Shown here in pieces: positions 4,104-34,527 of a stretch of 64,000 bases of DNA. The notes beneath the pieces were generated by a model that made no database searches, had not been told where the DNA came from, and saw only the letters and a program-made list of their open reading frames with translations. Every line of letters begins with the position of its first letter. The first letter of the stretch is position 1. This DNA comes from an uncultured Pseudomonadota bacterium. GTDB taxonomy: Bacteria > Pseudomonadota > Gammaproteobacteria > Ga0077536. A program made the translations under genes and the position numbers. The stretch spans positions 40,403 through 104,402 of the forward strand of contig CAIKBL010000081.1 in NCBI GenBank assembly GCA_903825645.1. The letters are read 5' to 3'.

Positions 4104-4853
4104 TCAGGCGCCCCGTTGCCGGAGGGTCTCAAATAGACAGACGGCCGTGGCAGTCCCAAGATTAAGGCTCTCGACGGTGCCTTTCAGCGGTATTCTGGCA
4201 AGCCAGTCGCAGGATTCTCGGGTCAGCCGACGCAAGCCCGCGCCCTCGGCACCGATGATCCACGCCAGCGGGCGATTGAGATCGAGCATGTAGAGGCTTT
4301 CACTGGCCTCCCCGCTCGCCCCGACCAGCCACACACCGGCTTCTTTGAGCGCTTCGAGGGTTCGCGCCAAGTTAGTCACAAAGACAAGCGGCACGGTATC
4401 GAGCGCGCCGCTGGCGACCTTGGCGACGGCGGGCGTAATGCCGGCACTTCTGTCTTTGGTCAGGATGATCCCGCTCACCCCGGTGGCATCGGCCAACCGA
4501 AGTACCGCGCCGAGATTCTGGGGATCCTGCAGTTGATCAACGACCAAAACCAACGGCAACGCGGCGCCGATGACATGGGTCGCCAGCCATTCATCGAACG
4601 CCCACCCGCGGGGCGGCCGGCGACGAATGACCACGCCTTGATGGCCGGGGGCGCCAGCGATCCGCTCCAGCGCCTCCCCCCCAACCCGCTGAGCCCGCAC
4701 GCCCAAGGCAGTGGCCCGTGCAACGAGCTGCTCAAGCTCCGGCTGAACCGTGCCCAGACGAATCCAGCACTCCAAAATCGCCTCCGGCGCGTGTCTGAAA
4801 GCGGCTTCCACCGCATGCAGGCCATAGGTCAATAGGGTCCGGCTATCACTCAT
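4104..4853 (-). CDS. rlmB: 23S rRNA (guanosine-2'-O)-methyltransferase RlmB (SpoU family)
   Basis: YGLHAVEAAFRH; LVLVVDQLQDPQNLGAVLRLADATG; WIIGAEGAGLRRLTRESCD; SLNLGTATAVCLFE. Confidence 0.93.
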   Translation of the reverse strand: MSDSRTLLTYGLHAVEAAFRHAPEAILECWIRLGTVQPELEQLVARATALGVRAQRVGGEALERIAGAPGHQGVVIRRRPPRGWAFDEWLATHVIGAALPLVLVVDQLQDPQNLGAVLRLADATGVSGIILTKDRSAGITPAVAKVASGALDTVPLVFVTNLARTLEALKEAGVWLVGASGEASESLYMLDLNRPLAWIIGAEGAGLRRLTRESCDWLARIPLKGTVESLNLGTATAVCLFETLRQRGA

Positions 4854-7009
4854 CGGCGGCGGCGCCCCGATTTTAGGGGTGGTGGCGTGGGTGGTGGCGC
4901 CAGGGCGAAATCAATTTTGCGATCATCGAGACTGACCCGCGCCACCACGACGGTCAGACGCTGACCCAATCCATATTCCTGCTGCTTTCGACGCCCCACC
5001 ATGCGGTGCCGAACCGGGTCAAAGTGATAGTAATCCTCGGGCAGCGCCGTGACATGAATCAGTCCTTCGACGAACGAATCGTCCAGTTGCACAAACAGAC
5101 CGAACGCCGTCACAGCACTGATGATCCCGACGAAATGCTGTCCAACTTTATCGAGCATGTACTCGCACTTCAGCCAGGCAACCGCATCTCGAGTCGCATC
5201 GTCGGCTCGGCGTTCAGTCATCGAGCAGTGCTCGCCGAGCAAGAGCAGATCATCGGCCGGCGCCGGAAGTTTGGCGATCTGCTGTTTGAGCGCACGATGG
5301 ATCGCCAAATCAGGGTAGCGACGGATGGGTGAAGTGAAGTGCGCATAAGCCGTGAGGCCCAGCCCAAAATGGCCCTGATTATCGGGACTGTATACCGCCA
5401 GCTTCAAGCTTCGCATCAGGACGGTCTCAATCAGATGGCGGTCAGGTCGCGCACGGGCCTGTTCCAACACTTTCGAGAAATGTTGCGCGACCGGATGTTC
5501 CCCCCCCCCTAAATTGAGGCCTATCCCGGCTAAAAATTGGCGCAAGGCTTCGATTTTCTGAGCCTCGGGCAAAGCGTGGATCCGAAACAGCGCAGCTCGC
5601 CGATGTCGGATGAGATGTTCGGCCGCCGCCACATTGGCGGCAATCATGAATTCTTCGATCAACCGGTGGGCATCGCCGCGTTGGCGGGTTTCGATGCGCT
5701 CGATCTTGCGGGCGGCATCAAACACGAAAAGAGGCTCTACGCTGTCAATATCCAGCGCGCCGCGAACTTCTCGCTGGGTGCGCAACAGCTGATACAACTC
5801 GTAAGCCACCCGGAGATGGCTTTCAAGACTGTCTTTCGCGAGATCTGACGGTGGCGCCGCCGCCAGCCATCCGGCAACTTCCTCGTAAATGAGGCGGGCA
5901 CGGGAGCGAATAACGGCATTGGCGAACCGGGTGCGCGTACAGTTGCCCGCGGCGTCATAACGGAGCTCACAGACCATGGTCAGACGCTCGACGTCGGGAT
6001 TCAACGAGCAAATACCGTTCGACAGTTGCTCAGGAAGCATAGGGATCACCCGTGCAGGGAAATACACGGAGGTTCCCCGTTCCCGTGCCGCCCGATCGAG
6101 CACCGTCCCGGGACGCACGTAATGCGCGACATCGGCGATCGCGACATACAGCACAAAGCCTGACCGGGTCTTACGGCAGTACACCGCGTCGTCAAAATCC
6201 CGCGCATCGACACCGTCGATCGTCACGAAAGGCAAATCGCGCAAATCCTCGCGATCGGCGTAGTCCGCTTCCACCACCGTGGCAGAAATCTGCCGTAACT
6301 CGCGCGTCAGTCCCTCTGGCCAAGTGGTTGGTAATTCGTAGCTGCGGATGGCGATATCGATTTCCATCCCCGGCGCCATATGGTCACCTAACACCTCGCG
6401 TACATGTCCAATGGGTTGATAACGGCTGTCCGGCTGCTGATCGATGGTCACGACCACGATTTGTCCGTGTTTGGCACCCGCTTCCTTGCCCGGCGGGATC
6501 AGGATGTCCTGATTGAGATGCCGGTTGTCGGGACTCACGACGGCGACCCCCCCTTCCTGGAAATAGCGTCCGACCACGTCGTGGTTCGCGCGCGACAGCA
6601 CCTCCACCAGCGCGCCATACGGTCGGCCACGGTCGTCCTGACCGGCCAGTCGCACCAGCACCCGGTCGCCATGGAGCACGCGTCGCGCCTCCCGGGGCGC
6701 GAGGTAAATGTCCGCGTCACCCACGTCAGGCCTGACGAAAGCGAACCCGTCCGGATGTCCGATAACACGCCCCGGCAATAACTCCATCGCCCGCGCGATC
6801 CCGAAACGCCGGTCCCGCGTCTCGAGCAACTGCCCGTCACGGACCATCGCCCGCAATCGCCGCTGCATCGCATGCATGGCGGGTCGATACCCGACATCCA
6901 GTGTCTTGGCGAGCGTCTTAAGGGTGCAGGGCGCGCCGCTTTTTTCAAGCTGCGCGAGAATCGCTTCACGACTCGGGATAACTAAAATTTCTGATTCAGA
7001 GGTTGGCAT
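4850..7009 (-). CDS. rnr: Ribonuclease R
   Basis: RNB-domain motifs (FVTIDGVDARDFDDAVYC, YFPARVIPMLPEQLSNGICSLNPDVERLTMVCE), FTSPIRRYPDLAIHRAL, C-terminal S1 domain; MPTSESEIL start at 7009 preferred. Confidence 0.95.
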   Translation of the reverse strand: MPTSESEILVIPSREAILAQLEKSGAPCTLKTLAKTLDVGYRPAMHAMQRRLRAMVRDGQLLETRDRRFGIARAMELLPGRVIGHPDGFAFVRPDVGDADIYLAPREARRVLHGDRVLVRLAGQDDRGRPYGALVEVLSRANHDVVGRYFQEGGVAVVSPDNRHLNQDILIPPGKEAGAKHGQIVVVTIDQQPDSRYQPIGHVREVLGDHMAPGMEIDIAIRSYELPTTWPEGLTRELRQISATVVEADYADREDLRDLPFVTIDGVDARDFDDAVYCRKTRSGFVLYVAIADVAHYVRPGTVLDRAARERGTSVYFPARVIPMLPEQLSNGICSLNPDVERLTMVCELRYDAAGNCTRTRFANAVIRSRARLIYEEVAGWLAAAPPSDLAKDSLESHLRVAYELYQLLRTQREVRGALDIDSVEPLFVFDAARKIERIETRQRGDAHRLIEEFMIAANVAAAEHLIRHRRAALFRIHALPEAQKIEALRQFLAGIGLNLGGGEHPVAQHFSKVLEQARARPDRHLIETVLMRSLKLAVYSPDNQGHFGLGLTAYAHFTSPIRRYPDLAIHRALKQQIAKLPAPADDLLLLGEHCSMTERRADDATRDAVAWLKCEYMLDKVGQHFVGIISAVTAFGLFVQLDDSFVEGLIHVTALPEDYYHFDPVRHRMVGRRKQQEYGLGQRLTVVVARVSLDDRKIDFALAPPPTPPPLKSGRRRR
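5510..5519 (+). repeat. Poly-C (10 C; G10 on coding strand) inside rnr
   Basis: Read directly: gatgtt-CCCCCCCCCC-taaattg; encodes Gly-Gly-Gly in LNLGGGEHP. Confidence 0.9.
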
Positions 7010-24501: not shown

Positions 24502-25182
24502 TTATCTTCCTCTCATGTCCGGTTGGGTCGCCGCACCGGGAGTTTCGGCGAGCACGCGGCGCATTTCCTCTACCTGCTCGTAGAGCAGATTCGCGGCTTT
24601 AAGCTTTTCTTCCATCTGTAAACGAACACTCTTCAACTGCGCGCGTTGGGCCTTAACCTTACCCGCAAACGCTACTAGGGACTGATGATGATCGCGCAAA
24701 ATCTGTGCTTTTTGTAGATAGTGAGCACGGTAGTGCGCGCGGAGTTCCGCATCTCGCTTGCGCAACAACGTCTCCGCGGTTTGTTCCAGACTGGCCGCCC
24801 TGATCTGATAACGACGATCGAGTTCTTGTATCCGTTGGTGAAGGCCTTCCGCGACATGCGCACGCAACTGGCGCTCAAAATCACTAACGAGCCCCTCGAT
24901 CGGATCGGTCACCTCGCCGTCCTTTTCCCCGGCAGCTACGGACGCGCCCAAATCAAGCGAAAAGGGTGACCCGTGGTCCTGCGCGAAGTCCGGTCCATCC
25001 TCCTCAGCAGAGGCGGGCGCAAACGCCCGCAGGTCTTGCCGAATATCCAGCCCGTCAGGCTCTGTTCGCGCGCGCGGTTCCGCCGCGCTCACCGGTCCGC
25101 TGTCTCCGTTCGCAGGACTGTCCGAAGCGCCCGGTCCTGCGTGCGGGACTGGCGCGTCATCGAAGAGGGAGGTGTTTTCCAT
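24502..25182 (-). CDS. Hypothetical coiled-coil protein
   Basis: Start MENTSLFDDAPVPHAGPG; C-terminal charged heptad-like region QRIQELDRRYQIRAASLEQTAETLLRKRDAELRAHYRAHYLQKAQILRDHH. Confidence 0.55.
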   Translation of the reverse strand: MENTSLFDDAPVPHAGPGASDSPANGDSGPVSAAEPRARTEPDGLDIRQDLRAFAPASAEEDGPDFAQDHGSPFSLDLGASVAAGEKDGEVTDPIEGLVSDFERQLRAHVAEGLHQRIQELDRRYQIRAASLEQTAETLLRKRDAELRAHYRAHYLQKAQILRDHHQSLVAFAGKVKAQRAQLKSVRLQMEEKLKAANLLYEQVEEMRRVLAETPGAATQPDMRGR

Positions 25183-25267
25183 CGGCAAATTCCCAGAATT
25201 GAATTGGGGGTCAGGGCACGCGGGAAAGAGCAGCACATGGGAAGATGCACGCGCGTCGCCCACGCGC

Positions 25268-26347
25268 CTACCGGCCGACGGCCGACACCCCATTCTCGCG
25301 GGCTAGCGCCATGATGACCGGCTCTTCGAGGTAAAAACTCTTCAACCCGCGCTCCGCAAGCATATACGCGCCGACTGCACTTCGTGAAGGATCTTCCCCA
25401 CACACGATATAGGTTTTGTCGCCATCTAACGCTTTAATCTTGCGGCGTAACGCCCCGAGTGGAATATTCTGGCTATGTCTGAGTGGTGCTTTCGTGTAAA
25501 TCTCTGGATCGCTGATATCGAGCCAGCAAGCCCCCCGGGAGACCGCCGCGAGAGCGCCCCCGACACCCAGACTGTGCACGAGCGGTCGCCGGACGAGGCG
25601 ATCGAAATCGGCGCCCGCAATGCAAAGAATCTGTGCATCCGTCAGTGCCACCACCGACGTTTCGCGCGGCATCTTCGAAATGAGCGCGGTTTCGCCAAAA
25701 GAGTCACCGGGTCGTAAATCACGGACGTGCACATCCAGGCGCCCCGTCCCCGCGCGCCGCGTCACTTCGCAGTAGCCTGTCTCCAGTAGATAAAACGCGT
25801 CGCCAAGCTCGCCTTGCTTGAGAAATTTCTCGCCGGCGGCCACTGCCCGAACATCAATTGTGCTGAACAATTGACGAATTGACCGGGGTGACAAGATCTG
25901 GAACAGGGCCGAATCCATCGTGCGACTCATCCAGTCTTGTCCGGAGACGCAGATGAGTTCACTGACCGTCAACGCATCATTAATCTGCAACAGGCGCGTG
26001 GATTCCCCCGCGCGGTCGAGTTCCTGACAGCTGAGAATCGCAATAGTGCAAGGTGTGCGGGCCCTTGCTGTAAAACGCCGGGCACCGCGCCCATCCAGCG
26101 GACGTCGCGCGACGCCCGGCGCGAGACCGACCGGTCGGACAAGGCGCTCTTGTTCGAAGAATTCGAGATCTCCGACCATCAAATAATGTACAAACCCATC
26201 ATCATCACCACCGACAAAAATCGTCTGTCCCGGCTTGAGCGATCTCAATTCCACCGTCTGCCACAGTCGTTGCTGTGCATCGCGTGCAAACCGGTTTATC
26301 GGCACAAGGCTGCGGAATACCAGTTCGCTAGATTGCCGATTAGCCAT
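25268..26347 (-). CDS. Cyclic nucleotide-binding domain protein with C-terminal rhodanese-like domain
   Basis: cNMP-type segment GEKFLKQGELGDAFYLLETGYCEVTRR...LRPGDSFGETALISKMPRETSVVALTDAQILCIAG; rhodanese-like RHSQNIPLGALRRKIKALDGDKTYIVCGEDPSRSAVGAYMLAERGLKSFYLEEP. Confidence 0.78.
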   Translation of the reverse strand: MANRQSSELVFRSLVPINRFARDAQQRLWQTVELRSLKPGQTIFVGGDDDGFVHYLMVGDLEFFEQERLVRPVGLAPGVARRPLDGRGARRFTARARTPCTIAILSCQELDRAGESTRLLQINDALTVSELICVSGQDWMSRTMDSALFQILSPRSIRQLFSTIDVRAVAAGEKFLKQGELGDAFYLLETGYCEVTRRAGTGRLDVHVRDLRPGDSFGETALISKMPRETSVVALTDAQILCIAGADFDRLVRRPLVHSLGVGGALAAVSRGACWLDISDPEIYTKAPLRHSQNIPLGALRRKIKALDGDKTYIVCGEDPSRSAVGAYMLAERGLKSFYLEEPVIMALARENGVSAVGR

Positions 26348-26554: not shown

Positions 26555-27813
26555 TCACCCTTGCTGTAGCGCCTGCTGGCCGGATCGTTGAACGGTAGCA
26601 GGCAACAGCGGCGGCGCTCCTCGTTGCTGCCACAGCAAGTAACAGACGACGGCGACGTTCAGCCCATTCCAACCGATGCCGTTGAGAAAGGCGATTCGAT
26701 AAGATCCGGTCCAATCGTGCAGTGCACCCGACATCCAACCGCCAAGGGCCATGCCGAACAGCGTCGCCATCATGACGATCCCTACCCGGCGACCCGCCGG
26801 GTCAGCAGAGAAGTGCTCCCGGATGATGATGGCATAAGTCGGTACGATGCCACCCTGAAACAGCCCAAATAGCCCCGAAACGACGTACAGCGACACCAAT
26901 CCGTCGGTGGACGAAAATAAGCACAACGCGATCCACTGCATGACGGAACTGATCAGCAAGGTCCGAAGTCCCCCCATCCGATCGGCAACAAATCCAGCCC
27001 CTAGTCGACTAAAAATCCCAAGCCCCAGCATCAGCGCCAACATCTGGGCCCCGCGTGCGGGGCCAAATCCCCGGTCACTACAGAGGGCGACCAGCTGGAC
27101 TTGCGGCATGGCGATGGCGACACAGCGGCCGAGACCGGCGAGAAAGAGAAGCACAGTCACACGATTCAATGAAAGTGGAAGTGCCTCACCGGGATTCGAC
27201 GCAAAAACGGCCGGTGTCTGCACAACAGATCCCAAGCGAAAGCGGAGCAGTCATGACAGCGGTAACATCGTGAACAAGCAGCACCCGCCAAGCCAGACGT
27301 AAGTCGTGCGCCACCCGACCGCGGTCTGAAGGTATTTGGACAAATAGCGCCCGCGAGATAGGCTCCAGACGCGCAGATCGCCACCGCTATACCGCGCCGA
27401 CGCCCAAACCAGTGCGAGATATCCGCAATGGGCGGCGCAAAGATCGCCGAAATGCCCCAAAAGCCAATCAAAATGCCATGAATAAGCGCGAATTCCCAAA
27501 TCGAGGTGGCCCGACTGGCCAAGCAGAAGCCGAGGCACAGGCTAAAGGCCGAGATCACGAGCGGCGGCACGATACCGTAACGATCTGCGAGTTTACCCAT
27601 GAACACCCCACCCACACCGAACCCCAGCATGGTCAGCGTAAAGGGAAGCGATGCGCTGGCGCGATCGATCCCGAATTGGGCCTGCAGCGTGGGCAGGATC
27701 ACCGACAAGACATACATCCCACTGCCCGCGACGGTCATGGCCAACAACGAGGTCGCGAGACGCCGCCAGGCATAGACCGATTCCGGTGTTTTCCCGACGT
27801 TCACGGGCACCAC
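26555..27813 (-). pseudogene. MFS transporter, disrupted by a frameshift (~27335-27345) and an in-frame TGA (27251-27253)
   Basis: N-terminal half (27813 frame) and C-terminal half (27235 frame) are both MFS-like; the bridging 27251..27538 frame supplies YLQTAVGWRTTYVWLGG then stops. Confidence 0.8.
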
Positions 27814-29887: not shown

Positions 29888-30165
29888 ATGCTGAGTTCCT
29901 GGCGAGGCACCCGAAGACGAAGACGACTCAGCTCCCTAAATGGGGAGCATCTAGAGGGTAACGGAATTCCACAAACGCGCAAATCTTCACCACGCCGTCC
30001 CCCAGGGGCAACGCGTTAGATCCCGACGCGGACAGCATCCTGTGGCATGATTAGCGACCAGTGAAGGGGTACAGACGCCATCGACATGTGCCTCACACGC
30101 CAAAAGCAGGTGTCAGAAAGCCCCTGTATCGGTCGATGACCCACGTGCGTTAAAGGAAGTCCTCT

Positions 30166-30750
30166 ATGCCAAATCGATTCATGAAGGCCGCCCTACTAAC
30201 GCTGGCGAGTCTTTTTTTGTGGGCGCCCAGTACGGTATTCGCCGCCGCTTCGGCCTCGTCGACACCTGGCACTCAATGCAGCACGTGCAGTACGACCTTC
30301 CAATGCGCCGACGGTCTCAAGTGCGAGGGCGCCCGTTGCCGTGGCGAAAATCAATGTTGCCTTGACCTCGATTGCCCGACCGGGCAGCGGTGCCAGGATC
30401 ACCAGTGCAAACCCGCCGGTGGTCAGGCCGGCCGCTGCGGCGAATGTGAGACGGCGTTCCAATGCGCAGAGGGCCTTAGTTGCATCAGTGCCCGATGCAA
30501 GGGCAAAAATGAATGTTGCTTGAACCAAGATTGCCCGGCAGGACAGAGTTGCGAAAACCATCAATGCAAAATAAGCGGCGGCAAGGTCAATACCTGCGGC
30601 CAATGTACCTCATCCTTCGAATGCGCGAACGGCGTGAGCTGCAGTGGTGCGCGTTGTAAGAACGCCGATCAGTGTTGCCTCGATCAGGATTGTCCGGCGG
30701 GACAAACCTGCCAAGATCATCGCTGCGGCAACGCAGTCACTAAACATTAG
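30166..30750 (+). CDS. Secreted cysteine-rich protein with three tandem ~53-aa, ten-cysteine repeats
   Basis: Signal peptide MPNRFMKAALLTLASLFLWAPSTVFAAA; repeat consensus CxxCxxxFxCAxGxxCxxARCxxxxxCCLxxDCPxGQxCxxHxC three times. Confidence 0.85.
   Translation: MPNRFMKAALLTLASLFLWAPSTVFAAASASSTPGTQCSTCSTTFQCADGLKCEGARCRGENQCCLDLDCPTGQRCQDHQCKPAGGQAGRCGECETAFQCAEGLSCISARCKGKNECCLNQDCPAGQSCENHQCKISGGKVNTCGQCTSSFECANGVSCSGARCKNADQCCLDQDCPAGQTCQDHRCGNAVTKH
30277..30747 (+). repeat. Three tandem in-frame repeats, period 159 bp (30277-30435, 30436-30594, 30595-30747)
   Basis: Aligned translation: 53, 53 and 51 aa units with identical cysteine spacing. Confidence 0.85.
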
Positions 30751-30769: not shown

Positions 30770-31720
30770 ATGAGCGCAGGACAACGACTACCCAACACCC
30801 CAGATCCCATGTTCCGCTGGCCTGGTGCCCAGGGCGTAACCCTTGCCGGCGATGCTTGGGGAGATCCGCACGGCCCGCTGGTGTTACTCCAGCACGGCGG
30901 CGGCCAAACCCGCCACGCCTGGAAAAATGCAGGGGAAGCGCTAGGGCGTGCCGGGTACTACGCCATCGCTTTCGATGCCCGTGGCCACGGTGACTCTGAC
31001 TGGGCGCCTGACGGCGTCTATGGGCAGGACATCATGGTGGATGATTTGATTTGTCTGCTCAGCGCATTGGGCAATAAGCGCCCGGTCTTAGTGGGCGCTT
31101 CGATGGGCGGCGGCACGAGTCTGGTCGCCGTCGGCGAAGATCGGGTGGATGCCACAGCGCTCGTACTCGTTGACATCGCACCGCGGATCGAGACCGCCGG
31201 CGTTGAGAAAATAGGCGCGTTTATGCATCAGCGCCCCGAAGGTTTTGATTCTCTTGAGGAGGTCGCGGCGGCCATCGGCGCCTACCAGCCACACCGCTCA
31301 CCGCCAAAAGATTTGGCCGGTCTGGCGAAGAACCTCCGACTAGCGGAAAACGGCAAATATCGCTGGCACTGGGATCCTCGCTTCATGGCGTTGCGACGTG
31401 AAATGGACAAACGCGAAGCGCGTCTAGAAGCCTGTGCAAAAGCGCTAAATCTGCCCACGCTGTTGGTCCGGGGAGGCTTATCTGATGTGCTAAGCGAAGA
31501 AGGCGCCCGCGCTTTCTTAGCCTTAAGCACCCACGCGGAGTACGCAAATATTACGGGCGCGGGTCATATGGTCGCGGGAGATCGTAACGATATCTTTGGC
31601 ACGGCCGTGATTGATTTCTTGCAACGCGAGGTACCCGTCGACGGACAACCGCGGAAAGCCGCGCATACGCCCCATCCGCACCACGAAGGTCCACCAGGAG
31701 ATTTGATCGACGTCCCCTGA
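30770..31720 (+). CDS. Alpha/beta hydrolase
   Basis: LLQHGGGQTRHAWKNAGEALGRAGYYAIAFDARGHGDSDW; VLVGASMGGGTSLVA nucleophile elbow; GAGHMVAGDRND catalytic His. Confidence 0.92.
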   Translation: MSAGQRLPNTPDPMFRWPGAQGVTLAGDAWGDPHGPLVLLQHGGGQTRHAWKNAGEALGRAGYYAIAFDARGHGDSDWAPDGVYGQDIMVDDLICLLSALGNKRPVLVGASMGGGTSLVAVGEDRVDATALVLVDIAPRIETAGVEKIGAFMHQRPEGFDSLEEVAAAIGAYQPHRSPPKDLAGLAKNLRLAENGKYRWHWDPRFMALRREMDKREARLEACAKALNLPTLLVRGGLSDVLSEEGARAFLALSTHAEYANITGAGHMVAGDRNDIFGTAVIDFLQREVPVDGQPRKAAHTPHPHHEGPPGDLIDVP

Positions 31721-33034: not shown

Positions 33035-34527
33035 CTAAGGACCCTGGACTCGGTTACGGCCACGGCGCTTAGCGGTATAGAGCGCAGCGTCCGCGCGTTC
33101 GAATAGCGCACTCAAGGTTTCTCCCGGCTGTAGCCCCGCGACCCCGATCGAGACCGAGACAGGCACCCACCGCGACTGACATTGGAAAGCAGCTTGCTCG
33201 ACTAGACAGCGCAAATCCTCACAAATATGGCGCGCGCCGGCGGCCGAGGTGTCCGGAAACAAGGCGACAAATTCATCCCCGCCGAAGCGGGCCAGCAGAT
33301 CGGTTTTACGCGCTCGCCGCAGACATAGTTGAGCGCTGTGGCGGAGTACCTTGTCACCTACCTTGTGACCATAGTTGTCATTTATAATCTTGAAGAAATC
33401 CAGATCAATGATCGCCAGTGTCAAATCGGTTTTTTGCCTACGGGCCCGTAGAAATTCGAGACGGGAACGTTCTTGATAAGCAAGCCGGTTAGGGAGCCCG
33501 GTGAGCGTATCTTGGTGTGATTTTAGTTGTTCGTTTACTAAGCCTAAGCGCAGATCTTCTGATTCTCGCTCGATTCTTTTTATTCGCGTCATCAGCGCCC
33601 CGATAGACTCTTCGTAAGTCATCTGTTTCGAATGCTGCGCCTCCACGTAATGCTTGACTGAGGTCTGAATCAGCTGCACGTGGGATTCCACTATTTTTTT
33701 AATTCGGAAATTGGCACATCCCCGTTAATGGCGCGATCGATCGCGGCAACGTCCGTGTCGAATGCTGCTGAAAACTGTGCTGATACAGACACGATCTCCT
33801 GACTACCCTGCAGCGCGCTCGTTAAATCTGTCTCGATAGCGTGCAGATGCTGTGTTGCGCGTTTGAGATATTCACCGAGACTGCGCACATCCTGTCGCGC
33901 GACTGCCTGAACCTCATTCAGGAAAGATCTGACATTCTGCACCGCATCAACGCTTGATCCAGCCTCCAGACTTTCTCGTAATTTAAGGGCTTTTGATTCG
34001 AAATCGGGTGGAAGCGAGAGGCCATCAAATAGTGACGCAAACAACCCTCCGATCGCATTGGTCGCTGGTAGCGCTGGAATTTGGAGCGGCGCGGTTGCTA
34101 TACAGTCGTTAAGAAAACTCGCCATCTGAGACACCCACAACGGGTCGATACGGCCTTCAGTGGCCTTGTCGCGTAGATGGCGTGCCTCGAAACTTTGCGG
34201 CTCAGGTATCTGAAGCCGATAAAACAGTACGAGCCAATTCGAGATCCCCGCCTCTTGCGTCACGGGGTGGAGCAAGCATTGATAGATCAGACTTTTCAGC
34301 GCCGAAACGTCCAAGGGGATGGAGAGATTGCGAAGCGCTGCGAGCGCTTGTTCGTGACCAGCGAGAGACGAGCGGGGGACTTGAGCGCTAAGCAGACCGG
34401 CAAGCGCGCCGCGTAGGTCTCCCGCTAGACGCTGCGCGACATCGAATTCGCGACACAGTTCGCGATGCTGAGTACGCCACCCATCCTCAACTGCTGGAAG
34501 CAAAACTGAAGGCTCCGGATTCGGCAT
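33035..34527 (-). CDS. GGDEF diguanylate cyclase, split into two ORFs (33691..34527 N-terminal domain; 33035..33691 linker + GGDEF) at an A7 tract
   Basis: DTLTGLPNRLAY, LARFGGDEFVALFPDT; upstream ORF ends ...ISELKK* at TTAAAAAAATAGTG and the downstream ORF begins with the overlapping GTG. Confidence 0.8.

Follow-up and report, generated by a model that had tools for sequence, protein, structure and literature searches.

A predicted exported protein of three ten-cysteine units in a gammaproteobacterium, with a Dumpy DPY-like second half in each unit

The window, i.e., the whole stretch of 64,000 nucleotides that was analysed, carries on its plus strand a short gene encoding a cysteine-rich protein, followed at close distance by an alpha/beta-hydrolase gene. 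The features of the locus are as follows.

30041-30051, plus strand: the 11-mer TGTGGCATGAT, upstream of the cysteine-rich gene
30166-30750, plus strand: gene for the cysteine-rich, three-unit, predicted exported protein of 194 aa, with ATG start, orthologues and purifying selection
30166-30243, plus strand: predicted Sec signal peptide MPNRFMKAALLTLASLFLWAPSTVFA, with an AxA-type end and no lipobox cysteine, judged by eye
30277-30408, plus strand: unit 1 (aa 38-81), with its DPY-like half spanning 30355-30408
30436-30567, plus strand: unit 2 (aa 91-134), with its DPY-like half spanning 30514-30567 and giving the best match to PDB 1oig
30595-30726, plus strand: unit 3 (aa 144-187), with its DPY-like half spanning 30673-30726
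30770-31720, plus strand: alpha/beta-hydrolase gene, 19 bp 3' of the cysteine-rich gene

The reading frame is preceded by a ribosome-binding-site-like AAGGAAG (30153-30159), and the signal peptide, the three ten-cysteine units and the 30 cysteines of the encoded protein are all present as the original prediction described them. The units match the pattern C-x2-C-x5-C-x5-C-x4-C-x5-CC-x4-C-x5-C-x4-C three times with exactly equal spacing, each being 44 aa long and recurring with a period of 53. They are indeed repeats, though to call them near-identical was too strong, as pairwise identity within the window protein is 59-61%, and at the DNA level TRF did not find a tandem array. Among the window's 219 stretches that run for 100 codons or more without a stop, this frame ranks first in cysteine fraction (15.2%), about a factor of two above the next one (8.0%).

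Each unit can be divided into two halves, both spaced C-x5-C-x5-C-x4-C, the second reading CCLxxDCPxGQxCxxxxC. Two cysteines per unit fall outside these 4-Cys halves, namely the first of the CxxC and the second of the CC pair, and they may bond to each other, thereby locking the halves together. The spacing of the ten cysteines is invariant in all units (10 of 10) of the four orthologues, i.e., the window protein and those of three other genomes. The even and invariant cysteine set, together with the signal peptide recognized by eye, places the protein in the general class of disulfide-rich exported proteins. Once exported, a protein with 30 cysteines can be expected to become oxidised, since DsbB (E 2e-40) and two proteins with DsbC_N are encoded in the window's genome.

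Three congeneric genomes also carry an orthologue, G002 with three units and G001 and G003 with two units each, so that, as regards the copy-number check proposed with the original prediction, unit number varies from two to three among carriers and the module is retained. The contig of the G002 locus is also deposited as CAMATU010000075.1 (L001 hereafter), recorded as Klebsiella pneumoniae; its gene content is that of G002:C75 of this genus, and the record is probably a mislabelled metagenome-assembled genome. No orthologue occurs in the two remaining members of the genus (G004 and G005) or in the order's other genera (36 genomes in all), nor, weak matches aside, in 399 phylum-wide and 369 class-wide sampled genomes. 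Among the weak matches, the one in G455 is a chance hit to the antisense of glmS, and those in G584, G591 and G716 (E 0.001-0.009), which lie in short frames, some of them with stops, were provisionally treated as chance. No relative was found in viral contigs, phages or plasmids, and PHROGs gave no match. The restriction to one genus holds for the genomes searched, the only scan of genome contigs having used a single protein. The same module was also sought elsewhere in the window's genome, as had been proposed, and none was found; the gene is single-copy.

In the closest pair of orthologues, G001 and G003, the repeat region showed dN 0.040 and dS 0.88, and the resulting dN/dS of 0.046 (about 0.06 with the cysteines removed) indicates selection on the amino-acid sequence. 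Trees built for the neighbouring hydrolase place the four carriers in one group, with support of 0.76 for the protein and 0.905 for the codon alignment, which fits a single gain of the cysteine-rich gene as far as this one gene can tell. Trees of the units were poorly resolved; unit 2 of the window's genome (G000) and unit 1 of G002 pair in the protein tree (0.87) and not in the DNA tree, and this pairing hints at gain or loss of units.

In all four carriers the hydrolase gene lies on the same strand, beginning 19-24 bp after the cysteine-rich gene, and the two are likely co-transcribed. The statement that no partner gene nearby explains the protein has to be qualified in this respect, but the hydrolase is also conserved in genomes without the cysteine-rich gene and shows no obvious signal peptide. 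On the upstream side the neighbours differ: the window has a thiolase-like gene there, G002 has cbtB and cbtA, and G001 and G003 have cbtA-like genes that are shortened. The shortened genes L005:831-1346 (minus strand) and L006:1983-2504 (plus strand) encode CbtA-like proteins (171 and 173 aa) whose match to Pfam CbtA is confined to its last third. Each of the four carrier genomes has a single copy of the 11-mer TGTGGCATGAT, located upstream of the cysteine-rich gene in every case, and G004 and G005 have none. The 11-mer is possibly an extended -10 element (TGn-CATGAT); a sigma-70 consensus scan called no site there, and around the gene the calls for sigma-70 promoters and for terminators were no better than those in shuffled sequences. 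Rfam gave no match at the loci, with no cobalamin riboswitch over threshold.

Profile searches, including Pfam and TIGR04201, passed no curated family cut-off, and for this reason the protein was filed in no family. The closest likeness of the second half of the unit is to the DPY module of Drosophila Dumpy: PDB 1oig was matched with E 0.006 by the window protein and 0.001 by the unit profile, and against Pfam Dumpy_DPY (PF21164) the G002 orthologue scored best (E 7e-6, 26.3 bits, just below the curated cut-off of 27 bits, which none of the proteins reached), the window protein scoring 12.0 bits. Because cysteine-rich proteins give inflated scores, we used shuffles in which the cysteines were fixed and the remaining residues permuted, 2000 for each of the four proteins, and the real DPY score was reached by none (0/2000 per protein, 0/8000 overall). 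The second half of all ten units shares with DPY the C-x5-C-x5-C-x4-C spacing and the DCP core, and a mean of 4.6 out of 14 non-cysteine residues is identical, so the match is not explained by the cysteine pattern. We rejected the idea that each unit consists of two DPY modules, as the first half shares the cysteine spacing only (0.2/14 non-cysteine identities); column permutation likewise gave z values of 5.5 and 0.9 for second and first half. The units differ from DPY in joining two 4-Cys halves and two extra cysteines, and whereas DPY sits between EGF modules, the present protein is small, presumably soluble and bacterial, and a Pfam search found no EGF module in it. The proposal that the protein is exported and carries a disulfide-type module akin to eukaryotic extracellular cysteine-rich domains is thus supported, both by the half-unit match to DPY beyond the cysteines and by the encoded DsbB and DsbC.

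A second likeness concerns Dickkopf_N (PF04706), a family in which the same CxxGxC-type and DCxxGxxC-type halves alternate and to which the alignment again extends beyond the cysteines. In the genome G125 (locus L054) we observed a 569-aa exported metalloprotease-like protein in which a HEFGHWMGLDDE stretch is followed by a C-terminal Dickkopf_N-type cysteine-rich array, i.e., animal-style modules. This protein, matched by Pfam Dickkopf_N with E 3e-9, belongs to another family of the same class, and positions 3-41 of the unit aligned weakly to one element of its array, with 36.4 bits, compared with a maximum of 30.0 in cysteine-fixed shuffles (0/2000). The units described here differ from Dickkopf_N in their invariant CC pair and in that the array stands alone, and Pfam did not list the protein under PF04706 even at E up to 10. 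The myxobacterial repeat TIGR04201 (Myxo_Cys_RPT) was matched weakly, with E 0.013-0.039 and at best 14.1 and 15.7 bits against a curated cut-off of 25 bits. These repeats, found in TraA and its relatives, are also tandem, secreted, short and cysteine-rich, about as long as a half-unit, and those of TraA have been proposed to form a rigid stalk (PMC3325183); the present protein has neither the PA14 domain nor the MYXO-CTERM, and comes from another organism. Squash trypsin inhibitors and other knottins, as well as LDL-receptor class A modules, are cysteine-rich and show local resemblances of the CC or FxCAxG style, with E values of 2 or more and an order and spacing of cysteines unlike those of the units. 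A match to Nab2-zf4 (E 0.0036, below cut-off) was discarded as a CCCH zinc-finger look-alike, as the orthologues lack it and histidine is not conserved. AlphaFold gave poor models (mean pLDDT 46.7 for the protein and 63.1 for a single unit), and Foldseek, run with a low-confidence model, returned nothing below E 2.

Other explanations of the locus were weighed against these results. That the frame is open by chance, or lies antisense to another gene, has a practically negligible probability: a 135-aa antisense ORF does overlap it, yet the three orthologues retain every cysteine of their units, substitutions are biased to synonymous sites, with a dN/dS that contradicts this explanation, and both the position and the signal peptide are conserved among the four carriers. 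A genuinely new 10-Cys fold, in which the DPY-like half is a convergent short motif, would agree with a first half that has only its cysteine spacing in common with DPY, with the lack of any family over cut-off and with the occurrence in one genus among the genomes searched; it appears rather unlikely, given that the full unit matches the Dickkopf_N-type array, and its second half DPY, beyond the cysteines.

The toxin, protease-inhibitor, surface-adhesin and metal-binding roles suggested with the original prediction received no positive support. A periplasmic or surface metal-binding protein, acting as a thiolate store or metal chaperone and tied to the neighbouring CbtA/CbtB cobalt-transport genes, could be imagined from the 30 cysteines, from the divergent CbtB and CbtA neighbours in G002 and from the shortened CbtA-like genes flanking the loci of G001 and G003. 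We regard it as distinctly improbable, as no protein of the window's genome scores above threshold for CbtA, the CbtA-like proteins of G001 and G003 align to the Pfam model in its C-terminal third only, no cobalamin riboswitch exceeded the threshold at the loci, and the two-unit orthologues have no histidine at all. Moreover, an even cysteine count in an oxidising compartment served by DsbB and DsbC fits disulfides better, and export speaks against a metallothionein-like store. Finally, cbt genes adjoin the hydrolase in G004 too, where the cysteine-rich gene is missing, so their adjacency is independent of it. A secreted defensive protein, either a multi-headed protease inhibitor or a knottin-like toxin directed against competitors or grazers, would suit tandem cysteine-rich units of varying number, and squash trypsin inhibitors and other knottins do figure in the weak Foldseek list; every match in that list, however, has E above 2 and comes from a low-confidence model. 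Genes for immunity, maturation or secretion are missing from the immediate neighbourhood, PADLOC gave no match, a conserved inhibitory loop is not apparent, and the close orthologues show purifying rather than diversifying change, which makes a defensive function unlikely.

The best reading of the array is that of a lineage-restricted variant of the Dickkopf_N/DPY/TIGR04201-style cysteine-rich module. We consider it slightly favoured that the array would be exported, crosslinked by disulfides and stable, serving outside the cytoplasm as a spacer or a binder, either as a soluble periplasmic protein or as a released one, and not as an enzyme. The small three-unit protein would be exported through Sec and its three 10-Cys units oxidised in the periplasm, giving 15 disulfides if all cysteines pair; the product would be a protease-resistant string of mini-modules separated by short, partly glycine-rich linkers, where in each unit a 4-Cys first half would precede the DPY-like 4-Cys second half, the extra cysteines maybe cross-locking the two. 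Such an array could then serve as a spacer or as a binding protein, in the manner of the Dickkopf_N-, DPY- and TIGR04201-type arrays. Against this reading stand the family scores, none of which reaches a cut-off, the poor structural models and, for the spacer role, the absence of an attachment domain or anchor such as Dumpy and TraA possess.

More tentatively, the 44-aa unit might be a new small disulfide domain in which a DPY-like half has been fused to an unrelated 4-Cys half, cross-locked by the extra cysteine pair, and which arose in one genus with its own promoter element. Should this be the case, a bacterium would possess a stand-alone array of "animal-style" modules, and stand-alone arrays of animal-style cysteine-rich modules are unusual in bacteria. 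On present evidence the locus does not represent a new kind of system. An array restricted to one genus, varying in copy number, clearly under purifying selection and preceded by an element present once per genome, would offer a tractable case for the origin and spread of such modules, and a bacterial protein with 15 disulfides could usefully serve to test DsbA/DsbC-dependent folding.

Some minor observations concern the DNA of G004 and other parts of the window. In G004, intergenic DNA of L034 (about 4395-4480, 5070-5145 and 5228-5300) contains a short repeat similar to GGGAGCCGCTTTAGCGGCGAA that recurs at dispersed sites and has inverted partners. On the minus strand of the window, positions 24535-26347 hold, spread over two frames (52% and 43% identity), the orthologue of a 668-aa protein of L001 with cyclic-nucleotide-binding and rhodanese-like sequence. 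An MFS transporter gene at 26621-27783, minus strand, is interrupted by a frameshift near 27337, reflecting a pseudogene or an assembly error; its counterpart in L001 is intact (424 aa), with 68-69% identity on either side of the frameshift. Similarly, a GGDEF gene at 33047-34488, minus strand, is present as two overlapping ORFs with a frameshift at about 33695-33703, and corresponds to one gene of 497 aa in L001.
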